A DNA stretch of 64,000 nucleotides, taken from Phycisphaeraceae bacterium (lineage in GTDB: Bacteria; Planctomycetota; Phycisphaerae; Phycisphaerales; Phycisphaeraceae). This document shows, piece after piece, positions 32,499 to 62,803 of the stretch (its first letter is position 1; the number at the start of each line of letters is the position of its first letter). The stretch spans positions 1 to 64,000 of the forward strand of contig JAJDCU010000043.1 in assembly GCA_029260655.1 (NCBI GenBank). Direction: 5' to 3'. The position numbers were made by a program, and so were the translations under genes. The notes under the pieces were generated by a model. The model made no database searches and was not told where the DNA came from. It saw only the letters and a program-made list of their open reading frames with translations.

Positions 32499-32503
32499 GT
32501 TGA

Positions 32504-43853: not shown

Positions 43854-43895
43854 TTCGAGAGGTCAGGTGATCCAGTGGCGTCGCGAGGAACCAGT

Positions 43896-45446
43896 ATGCG
43901 GTGGCGTAGGCCAAGCCCCGCCAGCGCCGGACCGATCGGGTTATTGCCGATGGCTGGGGTGACCGGGGACCAGAACCAATCACAGGCATCGTCCGCGCCT
44001 CAAGCCCCCGGCCCGGCCACGGCGAGCTACCGGGTAAAGCCTGGGGCTGTAGGGAACAAGCTCATACGTCTATTCACCCGGATCGGCGTGTGTGTGCTGC
44101 TCATGTCGGTGAATCTCTGGACGGCTGGCGCAGCGGTCGGTCAGGACCTGTCCATGCCCACCGCCGAAACCGCGACCTGCCAGACCGAGGCCTGTCACGC
44201 CAACACCGCGAACTCGAAGTTCGCCCACGGCCCGGTCGCACAGGGCAAGTGCCAGGCCTGCCACGCTTTCGACACGCCCGCCAACCACACATTCAAGCTC
44301 ACCCGCCCGGCTTCCGAGCTCTGCCAGAGCTGCCACACGCTCAACCACCGCGATGTCATCCACAAGCCGGTGCAGCAAGGGCGGTGCATGGACTGTCACG
44401 AACCCCACGGGTCCGACCACCGGATGATGCTGATCGACGACCCGACAAGGGGGCTGTGTATCGGGTGTCACAAGCAGGAGGGCTTTTCTGACAAGCAGTT
44501 CAAGCACGGCCCTGTCGCCGCCGGCGCCTGCATCCTCTGCCACGAACCCCACTCGTCCTGGCAGCCCAAGCTCCTGGTGGAAAAACAAGACACCCTGTGT
44601 CTGACCTGCCACGCGCAGGAGCTTCGGCCTAAGTCCGACGGGGCTTGGCACGAACACGCACCGCTTAAAGGCGGATGCACCGACTGCCACGACCCCCACG
44701 CCTCGGATATCCGCCACCAGCTACATCAGGACAGCCCGGGCCTGTGCTTTTCATGCCACGACCAGATGCAAGAGCAGTTGGCCCAGGCGCCGATCGTCCA
44801 CGGCGCCCTGACCCAGGCCGGCGGTTGTCTGCGCTGCCACGCGCCGCACGGCTCGCCGCTGCCCAAGCTCCAGCGCGCCGCTCAGACCGAATTATGCCTG
44901 GACTGTCACAACAAGCCGCTTCAGACCGCCGACGGCCGGACGCTTACCGACATGGCGGAACTACTCAGCGATAACCCCGATCATCATGGCCCGATCCGTG
45001 AAGGCGAGTGCAGCGCCTGCCACCAGCCCCACGCGGGCGAACGCCACAACATGCTTATCCAGGCCTACCCCCCACAGTTTTACGCGCCCTTCTCCGATGA
45101 GCGCTACGAGCTTTGTTTTGGCTGCCACCAGGCGCAGATGGTCAAGGACAAGCGGGGCACCGGGCTGACCCGGTTCCGCGACGGCGATACGAACCTGCAC
45201 TGGCTTCACGTCAACCGCGAGAAGGGGCGCACCTGCCGGGCCTGCCACGAGGTGCACGCCTCGGGGAATCCTTTCCACATCCGTGACGCCGTGCCGTTTG
45301 GCAACAGCGACTGGATGCTCGAGATCCGTTTCGAAGTTTCGCCGGCCGGCGGGAGTTGTGCGCCGGGATGCCATCAGCCCAGGTCGTACGACCGCGGACC
45401 CGGGCGGGCCGACCCGGCGTCAAACTATTCAGGAGAATCACCGTGA
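43896..45446 (+). CDS. 15-haem cytochrome c, paralogue A
   Basis: 516 aa from ATG 43896, which has GAGGA at a 6-base spacing. The signal helix (IGVCVLLMSVNLWTAGAAVG) comes unusually late, after about 60 residues. Fifteen haem-type motifs follow: CQTEACH (CX4CH), thirteen CXXCH of doubled-CXXCH style with HGP/HAP/HEP spacers, and CAPGCH (CX3CH). The region FRDGDTNLHWLHVNREKGRTCRACHEVH is nearly repeated in paralogues B and C. It is expected to be a periplasmic haem wire. Its stop overlaps the next start (GTGA). The redox partner is unknown. Confidence 0.9.
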   Translation: MRWRRPSPASAGPIGLLPMAGVTGDQNQSQASSAPQAPGPATASYRVKPGAVGNKLIRLFTRIGVCVLLMSVNLWTAGAAVGQDLSMPTAETATCQTEACHANTANSKFAHGPVAQGKCQACHAFDTPANHTFKLTRPASELCQSCHTLNHRDVIHKPVQQGRCMDCHEPHGSDHRMMLIDDPTRGLCIGCHKQEGFSDKQFKHGPVAAGACILCHEPHSSWQPKLLVEKQDTLCLTCHAQELRPKSDGAWHEHAPLKGGCTDCHDPHASDIRHQLHQDSPGLCFSCHDQMQEQLAQAPIVHGALTQAGGCLRCHAPHGSPLPKLQRAAQTELCLDCHNKPLQTADGRTLTDMAELLSDNPDHHGPIREGECSACHQPHAGERHNMLIQAYPPQFYAPFSDERYELCFGCHQAQMVKDKRGTGLTRFRDGDTNLHWLHVNREKGRTCRACHEVHASGNPFHIRDAVPFGNSDWMLEIRFEVSPAGGSCAPGCHQPRSYDRGPGRADPASNYSGESP

Positions 45447-46519
45447 CCGTCACCCCAAGACGAACCATACCCCCCGGTCCGGGCCGACTGCGCACAGTCT
45501 CTGTGTTAGCGGCGGCCTGGGCCATTTTGATATTCACAGCCTGCGCCGACCCGGTGCTTGCGGTCACCCACCTGGCGCGCGGCATGCAAGCGCCAGGGAT
45601 CGCGCTGAACACGATCGACGGCCTGGCTGTCAACACCGATGACCTGCGAGGCCAAGCCGTGGTCCTGATCTTCGGTGAGCTGTACCACGGCAAGACCGCT
45701 GAGGCCTGTGACCTGATCCGTACGACCCAGGCGGACGAACGCCTGCGCGATGAACCGGTCACCACCTTGCTGATCGTCGCCCAACAGACCGGGACCGATG
45801 ACCTCAAGGACGCCGCGGCCGACAACGGACACGTCCCGGAAACGATCTTGCACGACCCGGGCCGCGAGGCGTTCGGGGATTATCGCGTAACGGTCCTGCC
45901 CAGCGTGGTGGTGGTTGACGAACATGGCCGAGTCGTTCACGTCATCGCGGGTCTGACGACCGGGTTCGCCGACAGACTCGCCGATGCGCTGCTGCTGGCG
46001 ACCGGAAAGATCACCGCGGAGACGTTTGATAGCAGGCGTCGCCCACAAGACGGCCCGGTGCTCAGCGAAAACGAGGTCAAGGCGATTCGGCTGACCCAAT
46101 TAGCCGGGCAACTATCCAACAGGGGCATGGCGGCGCTGGCCGAGGAAAAATACACCGAGGCGCTTGAGTTGAGTCCCGCCAACGCGCCGGCTCACCTGGG
46201 GATGGGGATGTTGCAGTTGAAGCGGGGGCGGTTAGCCGAGGCGGAAAAACGCTTCCGGAAAGTCATGGAACTGGACCCGGACTCGGTCGAGGCGTCGCTG
46301 GGCCTGGCGTATGTCATGACGATGCGCGGCGACGAGGAATTGGCGTCCGCGGAGAAGCTGACGCGCCGTGTGCTGGCGCTCAACCCCGCTCAGCCCCGGG
46401 CGCATTACCTGTTGGGGTTGATCCAGCAGCAGGGCGGGGACATCGAGGCCGCCGCCGCCAGCTTCAAGAAGTCAGCCGAACTTTTGTTGGACCGGTACGA
46501 ACAGGAGGCTTCGCCATGA
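45443..46519 (+). CDS. exported thioredoxin-fold TPR protein 1 (no CXXC)
   Basis: 358 aa from GTG 45443 (AGGAGA upstream). Signal peptide, then a TlpA/peroxiredoxin-like domain (ARGMQAPGIALNTIDGLAVNTDDLRGQAVVLIFGELYHGKTAEAC ... VLPSVVVVDEHGRVVHVIAG) in which the CXXC active site is missing, then three or so TPR units from about residue 215 (MAALAEEKYTEALELSPANAPAHLGMGML). Probably a periplasmic docking or assembly protein for the adjacent cytochrome, not a redox enzyme. The same pairing with a 15-haem cytochrome recurs at 56299. Confidence 0.85.
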   Translation: MTVTPRRTIPPGPGRLRTVSVLAAAWAILIFTACADPVLAVTHLARGMQAPGIALNTIDGLAVNTDDLRGQAVVLIFGELYHGKTAEACDLIRTTQADERLRDEPVTTLLIVAQQTGTDDLKDAAADNGHVPETILHDPGREAFGDYRVTVLPSVVVVDEHGRVVHVIAGLTTGFADRLADALLLATGKITAETFDSRRRPQDGPVLSENEVKAIRLTQLAGQLSNRGMAALAEEKYTEALELSPANAPAHLGMGMLQLKRGRLAEAEKRFRKVMELDPDSVEASLGLAYVMTMRGDEELASAEKLTRRVLALNPAQPRAHYLLGLIQQQGGDIEAAAASFKKSAELLLDRYEQEASP

Positions 46520-46959
46520 GCAGCGACAAGCCGTGTGAAAAAGGCAACGGTCGGCGCGGATTCTGCAAGGCCTGTATCGGCGCGATGACGGCGGCGTCGA
46601 CGGCGATGGTGGGATACCCGGTCGTGTCCTTCGTTATCAGCCAGCCATCGCGGATCGGAGAGGACAAGCCGCTGGAAGTCCCGATCGACCAGTTGACGCT
46701 GGGACAGGCGCGCTACGAGCAATGGCGCGGCCTGCAGGTCATCATCCTGGCGACCGCCGATGGCCCGATGGTCTTCAGCGCTTCGTGTCCGCACCTGGGC
46801 TGTGCAGTCGGTTGGGACACGGCCGACTCGGTGTTCCGCTGCCCGTGTCACGGAGCGGTCTTCACCGCCCAGGGCGAAGTCGTCAGCGGGCCGGTCAGCG
46901 ATTCGCTAAAGCAGATCCCCTTCGAGATCAAGGACGGCAAGATCATCATCACCGCGTGA
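46516..46959 (+). CDS. Rieske 2Fe-2S protein
   Basis: 147 aa. An N-terminal Cys-containing head and a membrane helix (ACIGAMTAASTAMVGYPVVSFVI) are followed by the soluble domain with the cluster sequences CPHLGC and CPCHG; both Cys of each box are also those of the structural disulfide. It accepts electrons from quinol in bc/b6f-type complexes. It forms an operon with cytochrome b (46969) and subunit IV (47674). ATGA overlap with the preceding gene. Confidence 0.95.
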   Translation: MSSDKPCEKGNGRRGFCKACIGAMTAASTAMVGYPVVSFVISQPSRIGEDKPLEVPIDQLTLGQARYEQWRGLQVIILATADGPMVFSASCPHLGCAVGWDTADSVFRCPCHGAVFTAQGEVVSGPVSDSLKQIPFEIKDGKIIITA

Positions 46960-46968
46960 GGCCAAGCT

Positions 46969-47628
46969 ATGCGTTTGTTTCAAGCAATCTACGGGTGGTT
47001 CGATCGGCGGTACCAAGTGACCCCGCTGATCGAGAAGAACGTGACCCACAAGCGTGTGCCCCGGACCCTGGGTTGGGCCGCGTGCTTCGGGGGGCTGTCG
47101 CTGTTGATCTTCCTGGTCCAGGTCTTCACCGGCATGCTCTTGCTGATGTATTACAAGCCCGACCCCGCCAACGCCTGGGACAGCGTGACGTTCATCAAGT
47201 CCAACGTCTCGATGGGTTGGCTGGTTCAGCGGATCCACACCGTCAGCGCGAACCTGATGATCGTGATGGTCCTGATGCATATGGCCAGGATCGCCTATTA
47301 CAAGGTCTACCGCTCGCCGCGCGAGCTGCACTGGGTCAGCGGGGTGGTGCTGCTGATGCTGACGCTGGTCCTGGCGTTTACCGGCTATCTGCTGCCCTGG
47401 ACGCAGCTAAGCTACTGGGGCGCGAAGGTCGGGACGGAGATCCCCGGCGCGATCCCGGTGATCGGGCGAGACATCGTGCAGTGGATGCGGCGCGGCGAAG
47501 CGATCAGCGGCGAGACGCTGGGTTTCTTCTTTGCGCTGCACATCTGGATCATCCCCGCGACGATCAGCGCGTTCATGGGCATGCACTTTGCCATGATCCG
47601 CCGGACGGGGATCTCCAGGCCGTTGTAG
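46969..47628 (+). CDS. cytochrome b6-like subunit
   Basis: 219 aa, four main helices. Haem b ligands are the paired His of helices B and D: RIHTVSAN / MHMAR and ALHIW / GMHFAMIR. GGVVLL-type packing and the FTGYLLPWTQLSYWG Qo-site region are conserved. The size and the separate subunit IV make this a split cytochrome b of b6f style. The spacing of the two helix-D His should decide between b6f and bc1 type but needs an alignment. Electron path: quinol to Rieske and to haems b. Confidence 0.93.
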   Translation: MRLFQAIYGWFDRRYQVTPLIEKNVTHKRVPRTLGWAACFGGLSLLIFLVQVFTGMLLLMYYKPDPANAWDSVTFIKSNVSMGWLVQRIHTVSANLMIVMVLMHMARIAYYKVYRSPRELHWVSGVVLLMLTLVLAFTGYLLPWTQLSYWGAKVGTEIPGAIPVIGRDIVQWMRRGEAISGETLGFFFALHIWIIPATISAFMGMHFAMIRRTGISRPL

Positions 47629-47673
47629 CGGGCGTCAACACCCGCCAAGGGCGGGAGCGATTGGGAGTATCAC

Positions 47674-48327
47674 ATGGCCGTCGACTATAAGAAACAATAC
47701 CGACCGGACCAGTTGGAGCCGTTCTGGCCCAATGAGATCATCAAGATGGCGGTGGTCGTGCTGTGTACGCTGTCGGTGATCATGGTGCTGGCGGTTTTGC
47801 CGGAGATCCTGGACATGGTCGGCATGCGTGGGGTGGTTCACCAGGAGGAGCCGGCCAACCCAGCCGGATCGACACCCGCGGGGATCAAGCCCGAGTGGTA
47901 CTTCCTGGCGGTCTACCAGCACCTGCGTCTGATGCCGACACAGTTCCTGGGGATCAGTGGCAAGACGCTGGGCGTGCTCAGCCAGGGCCCGGTCGTGCTT
48001 CTTGTGTTGACGCTGCCGTTTTGGTACCGCAAGGGCTCGCACCGTCGGCCGGGCTGGGCCTACCGGCTGATCGTAACCGCCAGCGTGTTCCTGCTGCTTG
48101 GGCTGACGATCTGGGGCGGCTGGCCCGAGCACCACGTCGACGGGAAAGAGCAGCTTGCGCCGTTGAGCGAATACATCGGCCATCACCCGATCATGTTCGC
48201 CATGATCGCCGCGACGATCGTGGTGTTCTACTTCATGATCGCGCACGAGCGGCGGGCGATACGAAAGATCCTCGACGCGCCGCCGCCTGAACCATCCGAG
48301 TCGACGGATCAGGAGGAGCAGCCATGA
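47674..48327 (+). CDS. cytochrome b C-terminal half / subunit IV
   Basis: 217 aa with three to four helices. The Qo-site PEWY motif is present (IKPEWYFLAVYQHLRL). The extra helices at the end and a Pro/Glu-rich cytoplasmic tail make it longer than plant subunit IV. GGGAG sits 6 bases before the ATG, and the gene ends in an ATGA overlap with the pentahaem cytochrome gene, so the two are co-translated. Confidence 0.92.
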   Translation: MAVDYKKQYRPDQLEPFWPNEIIKMAVVVLCTLSVIMVLAVLPEILDMVGMRGVVHQEEPANPAGSTPAGIKPEWYFLAVYQHLRLMPTQFLGISGKTLGVLSQGPVVLLVLTLPFWYRKGSHRRPGWAYRLIVTASVFLLLGLTIWGGWPEHHVDGKEQLAPLSEYIGHHPIMFAMIAATIVVFYFMIAHERRAIRKILDAPPPEPSESTDQEEQP

Positions 48328-49280
48328 CGCGCCTGATTTTGTCAGCCTGCCTGCTGGCGGTCCTGGCCGGGGCCGATCGTGTCAGCGCCTCACAGGATCA
48401 AGCCGAGGTCGTCGCGGCGGCGCCGACCGACCCCTATGCAAAAAACGCCTGTGTCCAGTGCCACAGCGACCTGCCGGGACGGTCCAGCGAGATCGTCGAG
48501 CTTGAGTGGAAACACAGCGTGCACTTTACGGCGAACGTCGGGTGTGACGGCTGTCACGGCGGCGATGCGAGTGTCCGGCCCGAACAGTTCGGCTCGGCCG
48601 AGGCGCTCAAGCGGGCCGCCCACCTGCAGCGCAGCCCCGAGTTTCTGACCATGCGCCAGTCGCGCGACAGTTTTGTCAGCGCCGCCAGCGGACGCAGCGT
48701 CTCTTACTTCTGCGGCAAGTGCCACGCTCAGATCAAGGAAAAACACCTGGGCAGTCCCCACGGCGACTTCGGAGACCCGACCTGCCTGTACTGTCACGGC
48801 CAGGGGTCTCACAAGATCACCGACGCGACCCCGCAGATCATCGACCCCCGAGGCCGCGCCGAAGCCGGCCGATGCAGCCCCTGCCATGCGGCTTCGACCA
48901 TGGAGGTGGTCCGCCAGATCAAGACCACCTTGATAGAGACCGAGCAGCGGATCGCCGAGACCACCGAGACCTACAGCGAGCTGGAGGGCTGGGGCTACCG
49001 CAACCTGGAGCTTGAGGAGCTTTCCCACCACGCCAAGGAGGTCAGTTCGAAGCTTCGGCAGATCTTCCACAGCTTTAACATGCGGGAGATCAACAACTTC
49101 GCCGCGGAGGTCCAGGAGGTGTCGGACCAGGCCAAGGCCACCTACGAGTTGATCACCCACCTGCAATCGGTCCGGCGCAACCAGACGATCGTGGGGGTGC
49201 TCGCAGTCGGGCTACTCTTAAGTTTTGCCTGCGTGCTGGTCTACTACAAACACAGTTTCCTGGACCCGTTGCACGGCTGA
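48324..49280 (+). CDS. membrane-anchored pentahaem cytochrome c of the b/Rieske complex
   Basis: 318 aa, AGGAGG upstream. Signal peptide, then five CXXCH (CVQCH, CDGCH, CGKCH, CLYCH, CSPCH) in the first 195 residues. A long helical stretch follows (IKTTLIETEQRIAETTETYSELEGWG...), then a C-terminal membrane helix (TIVGVLAVGLLLSFACVLVYY). It takes the place of cytochrome c1 or f in this operon. The helical stalk could hold the haem head away from the membrane. Similar b-Rieske-multihaem sets are known in anaerobic bacteria; this arrangement is not one I can name. Confidence 0.88.
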   Translation: MTRLILSACLLAVLAGADRVSASQDQAEVVAAAPTDPYAKNACVQCHSDLPGRSSEIVELEWKHSVHFTANVGCDGCHGGDASVRPEQFGSAEALKRAAHLQRSPEFLTMRQSRDSFVSAASGRSVSYFCGKCHAQIKEKHLGSPHGDFGDPTCLYCHGQGSHKITDATPQIIDPRGRAEAGRCSPCHAASTMEVVRQIKTTLIETEQRIAETTETYSELEGWGYRNLELEELSHHAKEVSSKLRQIFHSFNMREINNFAAEVQEVSDQAKATYELITHLQSVRRNQTIVGVLAVGLLLSFACVLVYYKHSFLDPLHG

Positions 49281-49557
49281 ACACGCCTTGGCTATCGGTC
49301 GAGCACGATTCGATGATCCTTCACCAACCTGCCGGGCATGCATCGCGGCTCTTGCGATCGGGAGCCGGGGGATTCACTGATTCTCATCCGCGAGAACTCG
49401 CCCGGATAACAGATTAATATACCTAAACTTATGGCCTCATTGATTGGCACGCGGTGTGCAATTTATCTGTGGGGCATGTCAGGCGTGGCCATGCCCTGCC
49501 GACCTTTATCCCTCAAAAGGCTCAGCCCACGCCCAAGCGCCGAACGCGAGTTCCGTC
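49281..49557. other. regulatory gap within the multihaem cluster
   Basis: About 280 bp before the CbcL-like gene. A sigma-54-type promoter lies at 49444-49460. It separates the Rieske/cytochrome b operon from the next transcription unit. Nothing else was recognised. Confidence 0.6.
49444..49460 (+). promoter_or_regulatory. sigma-54 (-24/-12) promoter of the CbcL-like operon
   Basis: TTGGCACGCGGTGTGCA: GG-N10-GC with a perfect TTGGCACG -24 box and GTGCA at -12. It differs from the 43711 site at just a few bases. Its position also shows that the ORF-track start at 49444 cannot be the true start of the downstream gene. Confidence 0.72.
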
Positions 49558-51816
49558 ATGCTCGGGCTCATCCTTCCAGATATCGGCGGCCGCAAGCTCG
49601 GTTTCCTCTCTCGTGGAGCCGGCCTGCGCCTGCGTCTGTGCCTGCGCGGTGGGGGTTCGGTGGGGCGGGGGGGCTTGATCCGTGCTCTGCGTCTCTTGGC
49701 GATCTTGGCGGTCTTGCTTTCGTCGGCCCACGCCCGGGCGGTCGAAATGACCGATGCGGACATAGAGAACAAGCGCTGCTTCAACTGCCACGGGCAGAGC
49801 CGGATCACGGACCTGGCGCCCAGCGAATGGCGGACGATGGTCTCGGACCCGGGTTCGATGGATGCACGTGCGCGGGTGGCCGAGCCCAGGCCGGGCCTAT
49901 TCACCCCGCCGGATGCGCTGCATGACGGGCCCCACGCCGACCTGACATGTATCCGGTGCCACGAGGACGCCGACGAACTTCCTCACACCGCGTTGCTGAA
50001 GCAGGCCCGATGTGACAACGGCTGCCACGCTCCGGCGGCGGCGGCGTACCGAAACGGGATCCACGCCGAGGCGCTGGCCGATGCGGACGACCGGGCCCCC
50101 GGCTGCGCCGATTGTCACGGCGGCCACGACATCCGTGTCAAGACCGATCGGCGATCGCGGATGTACCCGTTGAACGTCAACGCCCTCTGCGCCGACTGCC
50201 ACAAGCAGCACAACGGGCTGACAACCAACGGCCAAAACAAAAAGCAGTACGTCGACAGCTACATGCAGAGCGTTCACGGCCAGGCGGTCAGCGGGGCCGG
50301 GCTGATCGTCGCGGCGACGTGTGTGGACTGCCACCGCGGGCACGACGTACAGCCCTCGAACGATGAAAACGCATCGACTCACCGCATGCAGATCCCCGAC
50401 ACCTGCGGGCGATGTCACGAGGGCATCAAGGAGGTTTACACGAGGAGCATCCACGGCCAGACACTCCTCGAGGATGACTCCGGGGCCCCGGTCTGCACGG
50501 ACTGCCACACCGCCCACTCGATCACCCATGCCTCGACCGACACGTTCAACCGAGACATCGTCGGCGAGTGCGGCCAGTGCCACGACAAACCATCAGACAA
50601 CGGGGGGCTGTCGCTGTACGAGACCTACCGGCGCAGCTACCACGGCCAGGTGACCGAACTGGGCTCGTACCGCGCGGCACGTTGCAGCGACTGCCACGGG
50701 ACCCACGACATCCGCCCGATCGCCGACCCGGTTTCCCGCTTGCATCTAAACAACCGGGTCCAGACCTGCGCGGCCTGCCACAAATCGGCGAACGCCAATT
50801 TCGTCCAGTTCATGCCCCACGCCGACTTCCACGACGGCCAGCGGTACCCACTGCTGCACGGTGTCTGGCTCTACTTCATCATCCTGATGACCGTCACGTT
50901 CGTGTTCTACGGGGTCCATTCGCTTTTGTGGCTGATACGTTCGCTGATCGAGAGACGCCGGCACACCACACGCAAGGCCCGGGTCCATCCCCAGGCGCAG
51001 GGTTACGCCATCAAGCGCTTCCGCAAGACCAACCGTGTCAACCACGCGCTGGTCGCCTTCACCTTCTTCGGGCTGACGCTGACGGGGATGCCTTTGTTGT
51101 TCTCCGACCAGGGATGGGCCAAGGTCCTGGCCGGGGCGCTGGGCGGGGTCGACAACGCGGGGGTCTGGCACCGTTTCTTCGCGGTGATCCTTGGGATCAA
51201 CTTCGTGATCCACTTCACCGGGATGTACAAGCGCTTCCGCCGACAGTCCGCCAAGTTACTGCTGGTCGGGCCCTACACCCTGCTGCCGAGGATGAAAGAC
51301 GTCTACGACTGCCTGGGGATGTTCCGCTGGTTCTTCACCGGCCGGGGCAAGCCGGCGTTTGACCGGTGGACGTACTGGGAGAAGTTCGACTACTGGGCCG
51401 AGATCATCGGGACCCTGATCATCGGCGGGACCGGGCTGATGCTGTGGTTCCCCGGCCTGTTTTCGCTGTTGATCCCCGGCTGGGGTTTCAACGTCGCGTC
51501 GGTGATCCACGGGTACGAGGCCATGCTGGCGGTGGGGTTCATCTTCACGATCCACTTCTTCAACGCGAACCTTCGGCCGGAGAAGTTCCCGGTCGATGAT
51601 GTGATCTTCACCGGGGTGGTCAGTGAGGACGAGCTGCGTCACGAGCGCCCCGCCGAGTACCACCGGCTCAAGCAGACCGGGGAGCTGTCCGCCATGCGTG
51701 TGCCTGCGCCGCCTCGTTGGCAGCGCACAGCCGCGATCGTGGTGGGCGTTACGGCGATGGCGATCGGTATGTCGATGGTCGCGCTGATTATTTTGGCGGG
51801 TTTACGGTTGATCTAG
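49558..51816 (+). CDS. multihaem c - cytochrome b fusion (CbcL-like quinol oxidase)
   Basis: 752 aa from ATG 49558; TTG 49675, directly before the signal helix LIRALRLLAILAVLLSSAHA, is a good alternative. The periplasmic part holds ten CXXCH and one CX3CH (CDNGCH). After about residue 445 come a helix (LYFIILMTVTFVFYGVHSLLWLI) and a four-helix cytochrome b561/FdnI-type domain with His in NHALVAF, WHRFFAV, VIHFTG, VIHGYEA and IHFFNAN. The same domain order defines Geobacter CbcL, an inner-membrane quinone-linked cytochrome for low-potential metal reduction, which has fewer c haems. The activity is inferred from this likeness. Confidence 0.87.
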   Translation: MLGLILPDIGGRKLGFLSRGAGLRLRLCLRGGGSVGRGGLIRALRLLAILAVLLSSAHARAVEMTDADIENKRCFNCHGQSRITDLAPSEWRTMVSDPGSMDARARVAEPRPGLFTPPDALHDGPHADLTCIRCHEDADELPHTALLKQARCDNGCHAPAAAAYRNGIHAEALADADDRAPGCADCHGGHDIRVKTDRRSRMYPLNVNALCADCHKQHNGLTTNGQNKKQYVDSYMQSVHGQAVSGAGLIVAATCVDCHRGHDVQPSNDENASTHRMQIPDTCGRCHEGIKEVYTRSIHGQTLLEDDSGAPVCTDCHTAHSITHASTDTFNRDIVGECGQCHDKPSDNGGLSLYETYRRSYHGQVTELGSYRAARCSDCHGTHDIRPIADPVSRLHLNNRVQTCAACHKSANANFVQFMPHADFHDGQRYPLLHGVWLYFIILMTVTFVFYGVHSLLWLIRSLIERRRHTTRKARVHPQAQGYAIKRFRKTNRVNHALVAFTFFGLTLTGMPLLFSDQGWAKVLAGALGGVDNAGVWHRFFAVILGINFVIHFTGMYKRFRRQSAKLLLVGPYTLLPRMKDVYDCLGMFRWFFTGRGKPAFDRWTYWEKFDYWAEIIGTLIIGGTGLMLWFPGLFSLLIPGWGFNVASVIHGYEAMLAVGFIFTIHFFNANLRPEKFPVDDVIFTGVVSEDELRHERPAEYHRLKQTGELSAMRVPAPPRWQRTAAIVVGVTAMAIGMSMVALIILAGLRLI

Positions 51817-51828
51817 GAGTAACAGGTG

Positions 51829-53361
51829 ATGAGTGGCGACAGCCCGGCAACAACGAAGCAAACACCCGAGCGGCCCCCGGCCCCGGGTTGGTGGAAGTGG
51901 GTGGGTCTGCGCCGCCGGAGCGGGCGTTTGTTGAGGATCGTCCCCAACCGGTGGGGCTGGGTCATGCTGATCGGTGTAAGCCTGATTTCCGGGGCGCTGG
52001 GTTTCGCCGAATACTCTATGCAGCCGGAATTCTGCCGGTCCTGTCACATCATGGAGCCGTACTACCAGGCCTGGCACGAGTCGACCCACGCCGACGTGGC
52101 TTGTGTTCTATGCCACTTCGAGCCGGGGCTTGAGAAGACGCTCGAGGGCAAGTGGCAGGCGTCCAGCCAGGGCGTGAAATACATCACCAACACCTACGGG
52201 TCCAAGCCGCACGCCGAGGTCCGCGACAGCTCCTGCATGCGCGATGGCTGCCACGATCGCCGCCTGCTCGAAGGCAAAGCCGACTGGGAGGTCCCGACCC
52301 AGCGGGGCACGAAGATCACGATCAAGTTCGACCACACGCCGCATCTGACCGAGCTGCGCCGCGGCAAGGAACTTCGGTGTGTTTCCTGTCACTCGCAGAT
52401 CGTTCAGGGCCAGCACCTGGTCGTCACGCTGGACACCTGTTTCCTGTGCCACTTCAAGGGTCTCAAGCACGGCCGGGACGACGAGACACTCGGCGGCTGT
52501 CGGTCTTGCCACGAAACGCCCAAGGACGAGATACGGCTGACCAACGGGATCTTCAACCACGAGAGCTACATCGACCGGGGCGTGAGCTGCGAGAACTGCC
52601 ACGTCGACGCGGTTTCGGGCGACGGGGCCGTCCCCAAACAGCTTTGCTGGACCTGTCACAACCAGCCGGCGCAGATCGCTCGCTACGGCGAAACGAACTT
52701 CATGCACCAGAGCCACGTCACCGACAACAAGGTCGAGTGCTCGAGCTGCCACGTGCAGATCGTCCATCACCTGACCGCTGGCCCGGCGGCGTCGGGGAGC
52801 CTGCTGACCACGCTGGATTCACACGAGCAGGGCGATCAGAACGCCTGCTCCCAGTGCCACGACATGTCTCACAACGGCCCGCTGAACCTGTACCGAGGCG
52901 CGGCCGGCCGGGGCGTCCCGGACATGCCCAGCCCGATGTTTAACGCCCAGGTCGACTGCGTCGCGTGCCACAAGCAGCGCAAGTCGTCTCGGGATGTCGC
53001 CGGCGTCATGGGGCAGACCTACATCGCGGTCCAGGATTCGTGCGACGAATGCCACGGCGGTCATTACGAAGGCGTGTTGGACGAATGGCGGCAGACGGTC
53101 GGCCTGCACCTGGCTCAGGCCGAGCAGGCCAACGAACGGGCGCACGAAGTGATTGAATCGGCGAACATCCCCCCGGCCGAGTTACTCAAGCTCAAGCGGC
53201 TGCTGGATGACGCGGTCCACAACGTCCGGCTGGTCAAGCTCGGCCACGGCGTCCACAATGTCACCTATGCCACCGCGCTGCTCAACGTCGCCATCGAAAA
53301 CTGCAAGCAGATAGATGCCGCGGTCCACAACGACCCAGGAAAGGTTCAGGCCAGTCCGTGA
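51829..53361 (+). CDS. NapC/NirT-type multihaem quinol dehydrogenase, 12 haem motifs
   Basis: 510 aa from ATG 51829 (AGGAGT 8 bases upstream). One N-terminal helix (WGWVMLIGVSLISGALGFAEY) is followed by the NapC/NirT signature CRSCHIMEPYYQAWHES and CVLCHFEPG. In all there are eleven CXXCH and one CX4CH (CMRDGCH). A Cys-poor helical tail of about 100 residues ends the protein. NapC has four haems and ImcH of Geobacter seven; this one is much larger. It should take electrons from quinol and pass them into the periplasm. Co-transcribed with the CbcL-like gene and, by GTGA overlap, with 15-haem paralogue B. Confidence 0.88.
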   Translation: MSGDSPATTKQTPERPPAPGWWKWVGLRRRSGRLLRIVPNRWGWVMLIGVSLISGALGFAEYSMQPEFCRSCHIMEPYYQAWHESTHADVACVLCHFEPGLEKTLEGKWQASSQGVKYITNTYGSKPHAEVRDSSCMRDGCHDRRLLEGKADWEVPTQRGTKITIKFDHTPHLTELRRGKELRCVSCHSQIVQGQHLVVTLDTCFLCHFKGLKHGRDDETLGGCRSCHETPKDEIRLTNGIFNHESYIDRGVSCENCHVDAVSGDGAVPKQLCWTCHNQPAQIARYGETNFMHQSHVTDNKVECSSCHVQIVHHLTAGPAASGSLLTTLDSHEQGDQNACSQCHDMSHNGPLNLYRGAAGRGVPDMPSPMFNAQVDCVACHKQRKSSRDVAGVMGQTYIAVQDSCDECHGGHYEGVLDEWRQTVGLHLAQAEQANERAHEVIESANIPPAELLKLKRLLDDAVHNVRLVKLGHGVHNVTYATALLNVAIENCKQIDAAVHNDPGKVQASP

Positions 53362-54938
53362 TTCATCGTAGGGTCCATCCCGGCGCACAGCACCCCGCAG
53401 ATCTGCGGCGCGGGTTTGTTGTTTTTGTTGCGGGTCTGTCGCTGTTAGCGATGGTTTGCGCCGGGTTGTCCGGCTGCGGGCATGAAGAACCTGCCGAGCC
53501 CGGTGACGACCACCGTGAACAGGTCGCCGCCGCGACGGCCGACCGCTACGACCCGGCGCTGGCCTCGGAGCCTCAAGCGCCCACTGCCGAAGCGATTTCA
53601 TTCAACACCCCGGCGCTCGAGAAACCCACCGAGCCCTTGCCCAAGGACGCATCCTGCATCACCCCCGGCTGCCACATCACCCTGGTCGACGCCAAGCACG
53701 TCCACGGCCCGGTCGCGGTCGCCGACTGCCAGTCCTGCCACGGGCAAGATGTCGGCGGGCATCAATACCCGCTGAAGCGCCCGGGCAACCAGACCTGCAT
53801 GTTTTGTCACCCCGTCGTCGGCGCACGCGAGCACGAGCACGAAGCGATCAGCGCCTCGGGGTGTGTGGCCTGTCACGATCCGCACCGCTCGGACACCAAC
53901 TTTCTGCTCGCGGAGTCGTCTATCGAGTTGACCTGCGCCTCATGTCACGACACCCCGCTGAAGAAACACGCCCACGGCCCGTTCGCCGCCGGGCAGTGCA
54001 CGGTCTGTCATCAGCCGCACGAGGCCAACGCCTCGAACCTGCTTCGAAGCGGTGATCAGCCCGAGCACTGCTACGGCTGCCACAGCGAGATCGACTTGCG
54101 CGTGGGCAATTCCCCGTTTGTCCACGAGCCGCTTAAGGAAGGTTGCACGGCCTGCCACGACGCCCACACCAGCGATTTTCCCTTCCAACTGGCCGCGCCG
54201 ATCACGCAGAGCTGCCTGGACTGCCACGAGCAGATGGCCAAGCGAGTCAGGGATGAGCCCGTTTCGCACGATGCGCTTTTCATCGCCGACGGCTGCGCTA
54301 ACTGCCACGATCCGCACGCCTCGGCCGATCCTAACCTGCTGCGTGACCGGGCGGACCACCTTTGCCTGGCCTGTCACGAGGACCCGGTCGAGGCCTCGGA
54401 CGGCAGGACGATCGTGGGCATGAAGCCGACGCTCAACCGCCGATTCCTGCACGGGCCGGTGAGGGCCGGGGACTGCGCCGCCTGCCACAGCGTCCACGGC
54501 GGGCAGAACGCTCGGCTGTTGCTGGAGAAGTTCCCCGACACCTTCTACGCATCGTTTGAGCTTAGCAGCTACGCCCTGTGCTTTAGCTGTCACAGCCCCG
54601 ACCTGGTGATGACCGAGAACACGGCCGAACTCACCGGGTTCCGCGACGGCGATACGAACCTGCACTACACCCATGTCCACCGTGACAAGAAGGGGCGGAC
54701 CTGTAAGACCTGCCACGACATCCACGGTAGCGACCTGCCCCAGCACATGGCCAGCGAGGTCCCCTTCGAGGGTTCGAGGTGGTCGATGCCGATCAACTTC
54801 ACCAAGGTCCAGGGCGGCGGGTCCTGCGCCCCGGGCTGCCACGAACCCAAGACGTATCGTCGAGGGCCTGCCACGACCCCCGCGCCGCCGCTGCCGACCC
54901 AGCCCGACGACGCCTCAATTACGGGTGAGCCATCATGA
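53358..54938 (+). CDS. 15-haem cytochrome c, paralogue B, lipoprotein
   Basis: 526 aa from GTG 53358. The signal ends in a lipobox (LLAMVCAGLSGC), so the mature protein should be lipid-anchored. Haem motifs: CITPGCH (CX4CH), thirteen CXXCH, CAPGCH (CX3CH), the same 15-motif order as paralogues A and C. A Glu/Pro-rich linker follows the lipid Cys. An outer-membrane or surface location is possible because no inner-membrane retention Asp is seen after the Cys (CGHEEP). The next gene starts on the ATGA overlap. Confidence 0.9.
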   Translation: MIHRRVHPGAQHPADLRRGFVVFVAGLSLLAMVCAGLSGCGHEEPAEPGDDHREQVAAATADRYDPALASEPQAPTAEAISFNTPALEKPTEPLPKDASCITPGCHITLVDAKHVHGPVAVADCQSCHGQDVGGHQYPLKRPGNQTCMFCHPVVGAREHEHEAISASGCVACHDPHRSDTNFLLAESSIELTCASCHDTPLKKHAHGPFAAGQCTVCHQPHEANASNLLRSGDQPEHCYGCHSEIDLRVGNSPFVHEPLKEGCTACHDAHTSDFPFQLAAPITQSCLDCHEQMAKRVRDEPVSHDALFIADGCANCHDPHASADPNLLRDRADHLCLACHEDPVEASDGRTIVGMKPTLNRRFLHGPVRAGDCAACHSVHGGQNARLLLEKFPDTFYASFELSSYALCFSCHSPDLVMTENTAELTGFRDGDTNLHYTHVHRDKKGRTCKTCHDIHGSDLPQHMASEVPFEGSRWSMPINFTKVQGGGSCAPGCHEPKTYRRGPATTPAPPLPTQPDDASITGEPS

Positions 54939-56302
54939 CGCGCTACCTCTCGATCCTCGCCGCTATCACGGTCGCCGCGACATCCCTTAGCGCGGCCCCG
55001 GTTCCGCCCACCATCGAGGTGGCGTCCCAGGGGTGTGTCACCGCCGACTGCCACGCAAACATTAAGCGGCACAACGTCGTCCACGGCCCGGTGAACGTCG
55101 ACGCCTGCGACGCCTGCCACACCCTCACCGATGCCAAGACACACACCTATCGACCCACACGCGATGCGTCGGAGACCTGTACCTTCTGCCACGTGGTTGA
55201 GACGGAGGGCGCCGCGGTCGTGCATGAACCGCTGACGACCAGGCAATGCACCGGTTGCCACGATCCGCACGGCGGGTTCGACCGCAACTTCCTCAAGGCC
55301 GAGTCGATGAACGGGCTGTGCGCCTCTTGCCATCAGGACGTGACCGGTGACAAGCAGACGGTCCACGGCCCGGTCGCCGCCGGCGCTTGCGGGATGTGCC
55401 ACCAGCCGCACACATCGCAGTACCCCAAACTCCTTGTCGAGCAGGGCCGGACGCTTTGTATCGGATGCCACAGCGAGATGCAGCAGCAGATCGAGCAGGT
55501 CGGGTTCGTCCACCAGCCGGTCCAGGAAGACTGTACGGCCTGCCACAACGCCCACGCCTCAGACCACCCGATGATGCTCAAGCAGGCGCCGGGACAGCTC
55601 TGCACGACCGCCTGTCACGAGGATGTGAAAAAGGCCGTCACCCAGGCCACGCATCAGCACTCGGCGGTGACACAGGACAACGGCTGCGTCAACTGCCACA
55701 CGCCTCACGGCGGGGATCTGGCCAAGCTGATGAAGGACAAGCCGATCCAACTGTGTCTGCGCTGTCACAACCAACCGATCAACACCGACTCCGGTGAGAT
55801 CGTCCAGGCGGTATCCGAGCTTGCCGACCCGGAACTCAACAAACACGGGCCGGTGAAAGAGGGTAGCTGCGGCGGGTGCCACAACGTCCACGGCTCTGAC
55901 ATCGCGAACCTGCTGATCCTTGAGTACCCAGGCACGTTCTACCAGTCGTTCGATCTTAAAAAATACAGTCTCTGCTTCGAGTGCCACGACAAGCAGTTGG
56001 TCCTGACGCCCAGCGCCCAGGGGCTGACCGGTTTCCGCAACGGCGATCAGAACCTTCACTACTTGCACGTGAACAAGGACAAGCGCGGCCGAAGCTGCCG
56101 GGCCTGTCACAGCGTCCACGCCAGCGCCCACCCGGTGCATCTGCGCGAGTCGGTCCCCTACGGGCAGTGGGAGTTGCCGATCAAATACAGCCCGACTCCC
56201 ACCGGCGGCGGCTGCGCCCCGGGCTGCCACCTGCCCAAGGACTACGACCGCGAACGGCCCGTCGATTACAACCCCAAGCCCAGTGAGGGCACATCACCAT
56301 GA
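54935..56302 (+). CDS. 15-haem cytochrome c, paralogue C
   Basis: 455 aa with a standard signal peptide (MTRYLSILAAITVAATSLSAA), hence soluble and periplasmic. Motifs: CVTADCH (CX4CH), twelve CXXCH, CTTACH (CX3CH, at the ninth position where A and B have CXXCH) and CAPGCH (CX3CH). It shares GFRNGDQNLHYLHVNKDKRGRSCRACH with its paralogues. It is shorter than A and B because it lacks the long head or lipobox linker. It is followed, with ATGA overlap, by a thioredoxin-fold TPR protein, as in the A unit. Confidence 0.9.
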   Translation: MTRYLSILAAITVAATSLSAAPVPPTIEVASQGCVTADCHANIKRHNVVHGPVNVDACDACHTLTDAKTHTYRPTRDASETCTFCHVVETEGAAVVHEPLTTRQCTGCHDPHGGFDRNFLKAESMNGLCASCHQDVTGDKQTVHGPVAAGACGMCHQPHTSQYPKLLVEQGRTLCIGCHSEMQQQIEQVGFVHQPVQEDCTACHNAHASDHPMMLKQAPGQLCTTACHEDVKKAVTQATHQHSAVTQDNGCVNCHTPHGGDLAKLMKDKPIQLCLRCHNQPINTDSGEIVQAVSELADPELNKHGPVKEGSCGGCHNVHGSDIANLLILEYPGTFYQSFDLKKYSLCFECHDKQLVLTPSAQGLTGFRNGDQNLHYLHVNKDKRGRSCRACHSVHASAHPVHLRESVPYGQWELPIKYSPTPTGGGCAPGCHLPKDYDRERPVDYNPKPSEGTSP

Positions 56303-57372
56303 CACACCCGACACATAACCTGTTGACCTTCCCACTCGCGCTCAGATCGGCACTGACCGGTCTTGCCCTTGCACTGATGCTGCCCACAGGCGTTGTCATG
56401 GCAGACGACAGCGCCTCGCCCGGCGAAGCGGACGACCGGGCACAGGCCGCTGCGCCGCAAGTTCAATGGCAAGCTCAAGACACCGTCGGCAATCCTGTCG
56501 TGGTCCCCGCGCCCGAGCGCACAAGCGTGTTGCTGTTCCTGATGGCCGACCAGAGCCGCAGCACCTACGCGGTAGATCAGGTTCGCGCCTTGTTGGCGGA
56601 TGAGCCCGGCGTCCAGGCGGTGGCGATTTTCAGCGGTCATGAGGCGGGCGTCGGTGCCGCCCAGATAACCGAATCGGGCACGTGGCCCAGGCCGATCGTG
56701 GTTGATCCTGAGTATAAAGCGTCCGGGTTGATGAGCGTCCGTGTCTGGCCGACCACCGTCATCGTCAATGCCGCCGGCGAGCAGGTCGCCCACCTCGGCG
56801 GGCTGCGCGCGTCGTACACCAAAGACATGCGCGCTTACCTGGACTATTGCAACGGCTCGATTGATAAGCAGGCCTTGAAGCAGCGTCTTACGTCCAACGG
56901 CCTGGTCGCGTCCACCTCCGACCACGTCGCGTCGCGTCACCTGCAACTGGCGCTTCGGCTTTTGGGAAAAGGTCAGGTTGCCATGGCCCGCGAGGAGCTT
57001 GATCGCGGCCTGGCGGTGGAGCCGGACAACACGCAATTGCTTTTGGCTTCGGTGCGGGTGCATCTATTGACCGGTAAGCCCAACGAGGCGATACAGACGT
57101 TGGATCGCCTGCCAGACGGCGCGGTGTCCTGGCGGGTCAAGACGTTGCGTGGCCGAGCGATGGTCGCGCTTGGACAATGGGACCAGGCGCGCGAGGTTTT
57201 AACCGATGCCTTGAAGGTCAACCCCGATCCGGCGGAGGCCTACTACTTCCTGGGCCGGGTCCATCAGCACCATCAGGACTGGTCTGAGGCGGCGCATGCA
57301 TACCGTAGCGCGTTTGAAAAAAGCACCGCGTCCCACGGCCTGGCCGAGTCGGAAACCCAAGAAGACGACTGA
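56299..57372 (+). CDS. exported thioredoxin-fold TPR protein 2 (no CXXC)
   Basis: 357 aa. Signal peptide (GLALALMLPTGVVMA), a thioredoxin-like domain (SVLLFLMADQSRSTYAVDQVRALLADEPGV ... VWPTTVIVNAAGEQVAHLGG, with the cis-Pro WP-T present but no CXXC), then TPR units from about residue 215 to 345. It has the same architecture as the 45443 protein but clearly different sequence. Probably a periplasmic scaffold or maturation factor for the 15-haem proteins. Last gene of the CbcL-like operon. Confidence 0.82.
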   Translation: MTHPTHNLLTFPLALRSALTGLALALMLPTGVVMADDSASPGEADDRAQAAAPQVQWQAQDTVGNPVVVPAPERTSVLLFLMADQSRSTYAVDQVRALLADEPGVQAVAIFSGHEAGVGAAQITESGTWPRPIVVDPEYKASGLMSVRVWPTTVIVNAAGEQVAHLGGLRASYTKDMRAYLDYCNGSIDKQALKQRLTSNGLVASTSDHVASRHLQLALRLLGKGQVAMAREELDRGLAVEPDNTQLLLASVRVHLLTGKPNEAIQTLDRLPDGAVSWRVKTLRGRAMVALGQWDQAREVLTDALKVNPDPAEAYYFLGRVHQHHQDWSEAAHAYRSAFEKSTASHGLAESETQEDD

Positions 57373-57744: not shown

Positions 57745-58365
57745 ATGAAGCCCAGACTACTCATCTTCACAATGGCCATCGGATTGGTCATCACTACGAG
57801 TGCCCAGGCGGCCATCTCAGGTTCCGACCACGACTTCAGCGGTCAGGCCTGGTCTGGCGGGACGATCTGCCAGCCCTGTCACGCCCCGCACGACGGGCCC
57901 AATGCCAGTTCGCTCGGTCTGCTGTGGAACCACGAGGTTCCCTCCTATGCCAACTACACCCTTTACGAAGGTGCGACCTCCAACGATGGTTTCGCCGGAC
58001 TGGACCGCGACAGCCAGGCATGCATGAGCTGCCACGACGGATCGATCGCATTGGACAGCTTTGGCGGCACGACCAACGGCACCCAGTTCATCGGCGCCAG
58101 CAAGCAGATCGGCGCCGGCACGGGCGACCTCAGCAACGATCACCCGATCGGCGCCGTGGCCGTGTATGACGTCACCTCCACCTCGCTGACTCCCGACCCC
58201 AAAGCCAACGGTGTTCGGATCCGTTCCATGACCGTCGCTGGCCAGGCCGAGAGCGTCGTCAGCTGCGCATCGTGCCACTCGGTCCACAATAAGGCAAGCC
58301 TGCCCCAGTTGCTCCGCGTCACTAACTCCGGCAGCCAGTTGTGCCTGGCCTGCCACGTCAAGTAA
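57745..58365 (+). CDS. periplasmic tetrahaem cytochrome c (doubled-CXXCH type)
   Basis: 206 aa with a cleavable signal peptide (AIGLVITTSAQAAISG). Four CXXCH: CQPCHAPHDG, CMSCHDGSIALD, CASCHSVHN and CLACHVK at the very C-terminus. The spacing is typical of NrfB/doubled-CXXCH carriers seen next to NHL-repeat proteins. GGAG precedes the ATG. It has its own strong terminator, so it is probably made separately and perhaps in large amounts, as a soluble shuttle. Confidence 0.9.
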   Translation: MKPRLLIFTMAIGLVITTSAQAAISGSDHDFSGQAWSGGTICQPCHAPHDGPNASSLGLLWNHEVPSYANYTLYEGATSNDGFAGLDRDSQACMSCHDGSIALDSFGGTTNGTQFIGASKQIGAGTGDLSNDHPIGAVAVYDVTSTSLTPDPKANGVRIRSMTVAGQAESVVSCASCHSVHNKASLPQLLRVTNSGSQLCLACHVK

Positions 58366-58433: not shown

Positions 58434-58568
58434 AAAAGCGCTAATATCTGCTCAGCCGTCCGCGTGTTTCGTCTATTGCGGAACGGGCACCGCGGCTTGA
58501 GAACCGATATGATAACCCGTTGTGAGTGGTTCATTTTGCAATGAGACATCTTGCGGGAGCACCGGGTT

Positions 58569-60029
58569 ATGAAAACCAATAACAATCGCATCCTCGACCT
58601 ACGCCCCTGGTTCACTGCGGCCCTGCTGATAGGCGCTGCCATGCTAGGCGGTTGCAGCGGCGCCCCTTCCACCGAGAAGACCGCACAGACATTCGCCTTC
58701 TGGCCGCCGTACCCCGATGAGCCAAGGATCCAATTCCTCACGTCCTACCAGTTCAGCAAGGACATCGAAGAGCCGGGTACCAAACTCGAAGAGTTGATCT
58801 ATGGCGAAGCCGGCCAGCAGGTGCTGCCGATCAACAAGCCCTACGGCGTCGCCATGAATCAAGGCCGGATCTATGTCTGTGATATCCGCAGCCCAAGCGT
58901 GGTCGTGCTGGACCTGCGCAAGCGTCAGACCCGTGTGATCGGCACCACCGGGGTCGCCCGCCTGGAACGTCCGACAGACGTCGCCATCGCGCCTGACGGT
59001 TTGATCTACATCGCCGATATCGGCGGTAACCGCATTGTCGTGTTCGACCAGAACGAGCGTTATGTCACACGGTTTCAGCCCCCGCAGTTCAAGCCCGGGG
59101 CCCTGGCTGTGACCCAGGAACATATCTACGTCAGCGACTACGTCAGCAAGCAGATCCTGGTGTTGGACCGTTTAACGGGGCAGGAACTCAGACGGATCGG
59201 CACCCCCGACGGCGGTGGCAATGACGGGCAGTTCATCCGGCCCCTGGGCGTCACCGTCGATAAGCAAGGGCGCCTCATCGTCAGCGATGTCCTGAAAGCC
59301 CGTATCCAGATTTTCTCGCCCGAGGGTAAGTTCCTGTCCGGATTCGGGGAGATATCCACCGGGATCGGTGGGTTCGTCCGGCCCAAGCACCTGGTGACCG
59401 ATTCAGATGATCGGATCTACGTGGTGGACGCCGCGTTTCAGAACGTCCAGATCTTTACCTACGAGGGCAAGCTGCTGACGTGGTTCGGCAACGCCGGCGA
59501 ACACCCCGGCGCGATGTTCCTGCCCGTCGGCATCGCCGAGCATGAAGGCGACCTGGACCTGTTCCAGAATTATTTGCACCCGTCCTTCCAGGCCGAGCGC
59601 CTGCTGATTGTGACCAACCAGTTCGGCCCGGCCAAGGTCGCGGTCTATGCCCTGGGCCGGCTCAAGCCCGGCGCTACGGTCGAAGACATCCGCGTCGATC
59701 TCGCCGAGGTGAACCTCGGGCTCGACGACAGCAAGCCCGACCCAACCCCCTCGCCGCCGCGCAAGCCCGGGGACGAACCCGGAGCGGAACCCAAAGCAGA
59801 ACCAGTAGCTGAGCCCAAGGCAGAACCAGAAGCTGAGCCCAAAGCGGAACCCAAAGCGGAACCAGAAGCTGAGCCCGCCGTTGAGCCCACAGATGAACCC
59901 GTTGCAGAACCCACAGCAGAGCCCGAAGCAGAGCCCGAAGCGGAACCCGTCGCCTCGCCCAAGATGAACCCGTCGCCGCAAGCGGCCGATATACCCGCAG
60001 GCAACCGCGCTGTCGGGTCCGAGAAATGA
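58569..60029 (+). CDS. NHL-repeat propeller lipoprotein 1 with EPxAEP tail
   Basis: 486 aa from ATG 58569. Lipobox LLIGAAMLGGC. Residues about 40-385 form a six-bladed NHL propeller (INKPYGVAMNQGRIYVCDI, RPTDVAIAPDGLIYIADIGGNRIVVFD, FIRPLGVTVDKQGRLIVSDV). The last 100 residues are a Glu/Pro/Ala repeat (AEPKAEP-type), likely an extended spacer. No haem motif. NHL proteins accompany multihaem cytochrome clusters in several metal-respiring bacteria, where their job is unclear. The stop overlaps the next start (ATGA). Confidence 0.85.
   Translation: MKTNNNRILDLRPWFTAALLIGAAMLGGCSGAPSTEKTAQTFAFWPPYPDEPRIQFLTSYQFSKDIEEPGTKLEELIYGEAGQQVLPINKPYGVAMNQGRIYVCDIRSPSVVVLDLRKRQTRVIGTTGVARLERPTDVAIAPDGLIYIADIGGNRIVVFDQNERYVTRFQPPQFKPGALAVTQEHIYVSDYVSKQILVLDRLTGQELRRIGTPDGGGNDGQFIRPLGVTVDKQGRLIVSDVLKARIQIFSPEGKFLSGFGEISTGIGGFVRPKHLVTDSDDRIYVVDAAFQNVQIFTYEGKLLTWFGNAGEHPGAMFLPVGIAEHEGDLDLFQNYLHPSFQAERLLIVTNQFGPAKVAVYALGRLKPGATVEDIRVDLAEVNLGLDDSKPDPTPSPPRKPGDEPGAEPKAEPVAEPKAEPEAEPKAEPKAEPEAEPAVEPTDEPVAEPTAEPEAEPEAEPVASPKMNPSPQAADIPAGNRAVGSEK
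59778..59954 (+). repeat. minisatellite encoding AEPKAEP/AEPEAEP units
   Basis: About fifteen imperfect 12-base units (GCAGAACCCAAA-like) near the 3' end of the NHL gene. Unit variation shows expansion and drift; length could vary between strains. Confidence 0.8.
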
Positions 60030-60736
60030 ATGGCTATGCCCCAATCAGCAGGGTCAACCGTGGATCACAACTCAGCAGGCTTTTGCGCCTGCTGCCGGGG
60101 GCGGTTCTGGGTGTTTCGCTCTTGCTGGGGTTGACCGGCTGCGATCCTGAAAAACACTATGAGACGCTGTCGTTTTTCTTCGATGGCGTTCCCGATCCCA
60201 ACGCCCCGGTGGAGGACCTGTCCGATACGCCCGGCGCGCAGGCCCGCAGGCGGTTGGCGATCAAGCTGAAGTTTCACCCGCCCTACGCGGAGGAGAAATG
60301 TAATGCCTGCCACCTCTCACATGAGCCGGCGGCGCTGATGCCCGACGCCTCGGTCTGCCTGACCTGTCACGCCCAGGTACCCGAGCAATTCCAGATGATG
60401 CACGGCCCGGTCGCGGCCGGGTCCTGCCTGACCTGCCATAACCCCCACCAGTCCACCGACAACTACCTGCTCCGCAGACCCGCGCGGCAGATGTGCGCCA
60501 GTTGTCACGAACCGCCGGATACACTCGAACCGCTTCCACCGGCACACTTGGATCCGGAGCAATCGTGTATCAACTGCCACCACGGGCACGGGGGGGACAA
60601 TCCATACTTCCTGCGCGAACCGGGCCCGGAACAAACGGATACAGAGCAAACGGACGCGGAGCAAGCGGACCAGGAGTCGGACCCCGCCCCGTCCGCGCCG
60701 CCGACCGCCGATGACAACGGGGGGGCGCCTGGATGA
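60026..60736 (+). CDS. pentahaem cytochrome c lipoprotein
   Basis: 236 aa. Lipobox LLLGLTGC followed by DP; Asp at +2 would favour inner-membrane retention by E. coli rules, which may not apply here. Five CXXCH: CNACHLSHEP, CLTCHAQV, CLTCHNPHQS, CASCHEPP, CINCHHGHGG. An acidic Gln/Glu/Asp tail ends the protein. It lies between an NHL lipoprotein and the beta-barrel, with ATGA overlaps on both sides. That is the place a barrel-plugging cytochrome would take in a porin-cytochrome conduit. Confidence 0.88.
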   Translation: MNGYAPISRVNRGSQLSRLLRLLPGAVLGVSLLLGLTGCDPEKHYETLSFFFDGVPDPNAPVEDLSDTPGAQARRRLAIKLKFHPPYAEEKCNACHLSHEPAALMPDASVCLTCHAQVPEQFQMMHGPVAAGSCLTCHNPHQSTDNYLLRRPARQMCASCHEPPDTLEPLPPAHLDPEQSCINCHHGHGGDNPYFLREPGPEQTDTEQTDAEQADQESDPAPSAPPTADDNGGAPG

Positions 60737-62781: not shown

Positions 62782-62803
62782 GATCAAGACGAGGAAGTCA
62801 GCC

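Follow-up and report, generated by a model that had tools for sequence, protein, structure and literature searches.

The 64,000-nucleotide stretch of Phycisphaeraceae bacterium DNA analysed here (contig JAJDCU010000043.1; hereafter, the window) encodes three paralogous multihaem cytochromes, A, B and C, each with fifteen haem-type sites, of which the first is CX4CH and the last is CX3CH. The three appear to be members of a single, widely distributed family of end-capped doubled-CXXCH cytochromes with candidate bis-histidine ligands, and are probably MtrA-like wires that pass electrons between quinol oxidoreductases and an outer-membrane conduit that resembles the Uet (undecaheme electron transfer) system. 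The recurrence of the same end design on proteins of 9 to 25 haems suggests a modular electron wire linking the inner membrane to the cell surface.

A motif scan for haem-type sites over all six frames of the window finds exactly fifteen sites in the same order in A (43875..45446), B (53358..54938) and C (54935..56302), all on the forward strand, as an earlier note on this DNA had reported. The first site is CQTEACH in A (44178..44198), CITPGCH in B (53655..53675) and CVTADCH in C (55034..55054), and the last is CAPGCH in each (45357..45374, 54825..54842 and 56213..56230, respectively), again in agreement with that note. Between these ends A and B carry thirteen CXXCH motifs, while C has seven CXXCH, a CX3CH at site nine (CTTACH, 55601..55618) and five further CXXCH. 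Alignment places all thirty cysteines and all motif histidines of the three proteins in register; A shares 39% identity with B and 44% with C. The whole genome contains no further complete copy of the 15-site gene. The CX3CH at site nine of C, which had also been read correctly, is patchy even among the nearest relatives of C, and this patchiness among the closest orthologues led to its being set aside as a functional mark.

The three proteins had also been contrasted by their anchoring, with a late signal helix in A, a lipobox in B and a plain signal peptide in C. The contrast stands for B (lipobox LSGC) and for C, but probably not for A. The gene coordinates of the earlier note are correct, the ATG of A at 43896 sharing its frame with a GTG further upstream at 43875; read from this GTG, the hydrophobic stretch occupies residues 63-81. 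As the orthologue of A at locus L029 begins with an ordinary signal peptide, the late helix probably reflects an unusual or misread start codon rather than biology.

The CX4CH/CX3CH signature extends beyond the three paralogues. Homologue searches covered relatives and a collection of 84,980 species genomes, and the proposal to look for other proteins with a CX4CH-(CXXCH)13-CX3CH-type pattern proved productive: 67 distinct homologues from several phyla carry CX4CH-(CX2-3CH)13-CX3CH. In this set, which was selected by the motif pattern itself, 14 non-motif histidines are invariant and two more occur in 82% and 81% of the sequences, and all 16 are present in A, B and C. They provide enough candidate ligands for fifteen bis-histidine haems, which argues against an open catalytic haem. 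The possibility of a catalytic multihaem reductase was rejected as unlikely, since the conserved candidate distal histidines are numerous enough to serve each of the fifteen sites and neither CXXCK nor any other catalytic site was seen.

As this first set was chosen by the pattern, a second test used a profile of the C-terminal module only. The last site is CX3CH in all complete open reading frames with a strong match to the module except one (L048), in which the last motif has lost its first cysteine. Of the 67 complete 15-site homologues in the module-profile set (a different set from the pattern-selected one, although equal in size), 57 have CX4CH at site 1 and the other 10 have CXXCH there. 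Related families with 26, 16 and 42 sites have CXXCH at every site. Since 67 distinct homologues conserve the end-motif pattern and these related families are CXXCH throughout, the pattern is, at the level of sequence, beyond chance.

The same data bear on whether the CX4CH and CX3CH sites might be haem-free, in which case A, B and C would be cytochromes of 13 haems whose end motifs are decorative or structural. That about 15% of the 15-site homologues have CXXCH in place of CX4CH, and that L048 has an incomplete last motif, would fit such proteins; nevertheless, both cysteines and the histidine of the end sites are retained in nearly all homologues (one of the sets being pattern-selected), the distal histidines are sufficient for 15 haems, and CX4CH is swapped for CXXCH rather than decayed, which argues that site 1 is a haem site. 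Cytochrome c3 binds haem at CX4CH sites. Haem-free ends are thus highly improbable.

Members of the family occur in Planctomycetota, Nitrospirota, Thermodesulfobacteriota, Myxococcota, Bacteroidota, Calditrichota, Campylobacterota, Deferribacterota and other phyla. Kinship with named loci of Phycisphaerae points to Planctomycetota as the likely source of the window. In a sample of this phylum, 34 of 392 genomes match at E <= 1e-20, in many cases only partially, and a search of a plasmid collection returned one weak partial match. In a tree of 80 sequences, A, B and C each fall into a different clade, which is well supported and includes orthologues from relatives; the deep branching of the tree is weak. 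The earlier note had named a known family with this pattern as grounds for abandoning its claim; the open-licence papers searched contain no description of a 15-haem family, of CX4CH/CX3CH-ended wires or of an end-capped, pair-stepped design.

The proteins share a common layout, in which three first sites are followed by n pairs of the form CxxCHxPH...CxxCH, the last pair being closed by CX3CH at constant spacing. With P for CxxCHxPH and o for a plain site, the alternation ooo(Po)n holds in most relatives, with n = 3 to 11. The C-terminal cap is found on proteins of 9, 11, 13, 15, 17, 19, 21, 23 and 25 sites, and a few even counts (10, 12 and 16) are seen with it. Proteins of 25 sites are of two kinds: L071, an end-capped repeat cut at the contig end, and fusions of 10 and 15 sites. 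At every length, the spacing is about 23 residues between inner sites and about 35, 40-41 and 39-41 residues at the C-terminal end, and the region of the last four sites is 33-58% identical to that of C across the 9- to 25-site range. Given the constant ends and C-terminal spacing and the variable number of internal pairs, the most probable origin of the different lengths is that haem pairs were gained and lost internally while the ends were conserved. Four relatives (L019, L022, L023 and L026) carry fusions of an N-terminal 10-site domain with a 15-site domain; the two fusions that were fully read, L019 and L022, run on into a redoxin-TPR domain.

This layout partly bears out the suggestion that the end sites are special. 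Constraint differs between the ends and the middle, the ends being fixed where the pairs vary, but about 15% of the 15-site family do without CX4CH at site 1. The kept first sites and the constant C-terminal spacing form the pattern expected of conserved docking ends on a variable wire, and contact with partners through the first and last haems is plausible from this pattern. A more detailed proposal is possible but tentative, and we regard it as doubtful: the fixed specialised caps (CX4CH and CX3CH) would dock dedicated partners, the number of haems (9-25) would be tuned in evolution, pair by pair, to different envelope distances, and the redoxin-TPR protein would possibly act as an assembly factor.

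Fold prediction points in the direction of MtrA. The AlphaFold2 (AF2) model of C, made with 36 homologues, has a predicted local distance difference test score (pLDDT) of 88.6 and a predicted template modelling score (pTM) of 0.77. Its only significant fold match in the PDB is MtrA in the Mtr complex (6r2q_A, E 1.7e-7), with a template modelling (TM) score of 0.60 by target length. MtrA is also the top sequence match (its chain bears an unrelated molecule name in the sequence file). The likeness to the MtrA/DmsE decahaem family (MtrCAB, MtoAB) consists of the best sequence match, the doubled-CXXCH repeats, a fold match over part of the protein and the linkage to a gene for a predicted large outer-membrane barrel. 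Plain membership of this family (TIGR03508) was rejected: A, B and C score 128, 127 and 147 bits against a cut-off of 192.2 and, unlike MtrA/DmsE with its ten CXXCH, have 15 sites with CX4CH and CX3CH ends, as well as a C-terminal cap, with no equivalent seen in MtrA.

The barrel belongs to an outer-membrane cassette on the forward strand. The gene order after C is a second redoxin-TPR-like protein (56299..57372, immediately 3' of C, a TPR protein with a redoxin-like region lacking CXXC), the four-site cytochrome h4b (57745..58365), NHL beta-propeller lipoprotein 1 (58551..60029), a pentahaem lipoprotein with an LTGC lipobox (60026..60736), the outer-membrane beta-barrel (60733..62781) and NHL beta-propeller lipoprotein 2 (62687..63931). 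At the 3' end of the last gene begins that of a 12-haem protein with 11 CXXCH and one CX3CH (contig 63748-65541, L111:749-2542), which lies directly beyond the window. As this separate protein also ends in CX3CH, such a last site may cap the C terminus of doubled-CXXCH cytochromes in general. In many phyla, a protein related to this 12-haem protein closes the cassette, and the C-terminal cap is weakly shared by some of these relatives. The barrel is predicted to have about 28 strands and one small inserted domain; its fold matches are generic outer-membrane barrels, with MtrB giving the highest query-length TM-score among the matches listed.

Parts of this cassette recur beside capped cytochromes in other phyla. 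Among 49 named loci with the C-terminal cap, NHL genes are found at 32, 12-haem genes at 25, pentahaem lipoprotein genes at 22, and barrel and redoxin-TPR genes at 19 each. The 23 contrast loci, which encode all-CXXCH proteins of at least 24 sites, have NHL genes in 15 cases and 12-haem genes in 2, with pentahaem lipoprotein, barrel and redoxin-TPR genes in none. The barrel counts are a lower bound, because BLAST misses divergent barrels. At several Bacteroidota and Calditrichota loci, the capped cytochrome gene lies directly 3' of the barrel gene, as in mtrB-mtrA.

The surface-type NHL propellers of the cassette, and the possibility that lipoprotein B sits on the outer face, would agree with a different role, that of surface-exposed or filament-forming extracellular cytochromes of the nanowire or terminal reductase type, whose end sites would be subunit-subunit contacts; multihaem proteins with conserved ends could polymerise. 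This role is quite unlikely. The sole significant fold match is MtrA and no solved nanowire subunit, the nanowire chain 7tfs (presumably OmcE) being a weak sequence match. The 16 conserved histidines within each chain serve 15 haems, so that no ligand is needed from a neighbouring subunit, and the cassette already has another large cytochrome, the 12-haem protein.

The preferred reading as MtrA-like wires further involves the candidate quinol oxidoreductases encoded on the forward strand between A and B. A heads a run that continues with a redoxin-fold and TPR protein without CXXC (45356..46519, immediately 3' of A), a Rieske [2Fe-2S] protein (46516..46959), a cytochrome b6-type subunit (46969..47628; 227 bits with the ExtP model, cut-off 290), a C-terminal half of cytochrome b of the subunit IV type (47674..48327) and a five-site c-type cytochrome with a C-terminal membrane helix (48324..49280). 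These are followed by a CbcL-like protein (49444..51816), a NapC/NirT-type multihaem quinol dehydrogenase with 12 sites (51826..53361), B and C. The CbcL-like protein has 10 CXXCH and one CX3CH, followed by a cytochrome b561/FdhI-like membrane domain; these 11 N-terminal c sites and the subsequent FdhI/FdnI-like matches (HydC/FdnI-type b cytochrome) correspond to the CbcL/MtrH/MtoC layout, and Ni_hydr_CYTB scores 27.9 bits, below its gathering score of 30.1. Identity of the 12-site protein with ImcH was rejected: it has a NapC/NirT N-terminal domain, but a hydropathy scan shows no three N-terminal helices, and its odd site is CX4CH (CMRDGCH) at site 3, compared with the CX3CH beside the helices in ImcH. 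The CX4CH at the third site is retained in its relatives at L035, L046 and L049.

The bc-type complex adjoining A, together with NapA-like and DsrP/DsrO-like proteins also encoded in the window and several homologous loci that show no barrel or NHL genes, could indicate that the cytochromes are instead soluble periplasmic electron stores or shuttles, serving a number of partners, among them the NapA-like and DsrPO-like modules, outside any outer-membrane conduit. Such shuttles are unlikely in view of the strong cross-phylum linkage to the porin/NHL/pentahaem/12-haem cassette and the absence of barrel, pentahaem and redoxin-TPR genes from the contrast group. At the Geobacteraceae loci L042 and L052, the latter from the cultured Geomesophilobacter sediminis, the gene moreover opens the cassette, and no bc, CbcL, Nap or Dsr neighbour was found.

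If A, B and C are MtrA-like wires, the haem chain of any one of them, located in the periplasm or partly within the barrel, would carry electrons between quinol pool and outer-membrane conduit. The quinol end would be the Rieske/cytochrome b module for A, and the CbcL-like and NapC-type proteins for B and C. The N- and C-terminal caps would serve as docking ends, and the repeat number would set the length of the wire. Flow in either direction could be accommodated, that is, metal or humic reduction, or uptake of outside electrons.

Several points weigh against this interpretation. MtrA covers only part of C (TM-score 0.38 by query length), and the AF2 model of C is haem-free, so that the order of the haems and the linearity of the chain are inferred. 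The match between the barrel and MtrB is weak (TM-score 0.46), generic barrels being equal by E-value. Many homologous loci have no detectable barrel within 10 kb, and A clusters with the bc-type module, not with the barrel. The basis of the interpretation is formed by sites, candidate ligands, repeat layout, the MtrA-type fold prediction and gene linkage.

Among known conduits, the Uet porin-cytochrome complex has been found in Tenderiales and Gallionella (Eddie et al. 2022, as cited in PMC10734462). In PMC10734462, its parts are given as a barrel porin, NHL proteins, a tetrahaem cytochrome, three trihaem cytochromes and an undecahaem doubled-CXXCH cytochrome (11-12 motifs). The window cassette resembles this list by composition only, encoding the tetrahaem h4b, NHL1, the barrel, NHL2 and the protein with 11 CXXCH and CX3CH in this order; the last of these would count as undecahaem by plain counting, hence the Uet-like reading. 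Compared with that description, the window has in addition the pentahaem lipoprotein and three proteins of 15 haems. None of its stop-to-stop frames contains exactly three CXXCH, the count that would correspond to the trihaem cytochromes UetDEG. By composition, the cassette is probably a Uet-like system with a pentahaem lipoprotein and capped cytochromes and without trihaems. One contig of a metagenome-assembled genome (L072:354-14523) encodes a Uet-like cassette with two trihaem proteins in tandem with a sister cassette, which contains an 11-site capped cytochrome and a pentahaem lipoprotein.

PCC3 of neutrophilic iron oxidisers combines a porin with long periplasmic and extracellular multihaem cytochromes of variable haem number, whose models are mostly linear and long (PMC10734462). 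Periplasm-spanning cytochromes with variable haem numbers have thus already been proposed, and the idea of such a wire is not new in itself. The periplasmic subunits of PCC3 differ in having 21, 24 or 27 motifs and a conserved inner-membrane protein, and an NHL cassette is not described for PCC3 in PMC10734462; no frame with more than 16 sites was found by the motif scan of the window. The Ext/Omc conduits of Geobacter (ExtABCD, ExtEFG) likewise include a porin, a pentahaem lipoprotein and a dodecahaem cytochrome (PMC6148476), but differ from the window in haem counts and NHL genes, the comparison being one of composition. OetABI, known from Geobacter and from sulfate-reducing partners of anaerobic methanotrophic archaea, shares a porin and large multihaem cytochromes (PMC10553843). 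Adjacent pairs of all-CXXCH proteins, one with 26 sites and the other with 16, occur at L084, L091, L092, L096, L098, L100, L102 and similar loci, in some cases close to NHL genes. These distant pairs may be of the OetAB type; unlike the capped family, they have no CX3CH cap, barrel homologue or pentahaem neighbour.

If the proposed role is correct, the two end motifs mark candidate extracellular electron transfer in phyla for which little of this kind has been described (Planctomycetota, Nitrospirota, Calditrichota and Bacteroidota), and counting of CXXCH only would overlook precisely the two end haems. The natural series of 9-25 sites with constant ends makes it possible to test wire length against envelope geometry, and end haems against the choice of partner.

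A redoxin-TPR protein is encoded after A and again after C, and some relatives (L019 and L022) have it as a fusion with the 15-haem domain. Its homologues nearly all lack CXXC, and the TPR part of 45356-46519 scores with the CcmH/CycH TPR. Judging from these sequence features, it could be a dedicated assembly chaperone of the cytochromes. Elsewhere in the window, 30883-34109 on the reverse strand encodes DsrP (425 bits, curated cut-off 350) and a DsrO-like protein adjoining a four-haem cytochrome. The region 34571-39500 encodes a NapA-like molybdoenzyme (865 bits, cut-off 904), a NapB-like four-haem protein, a ferredoxin and a MoaA-like protein, and appears to specify a divergent periplasmic nitrate reductase beside the electron-conduit cluster.

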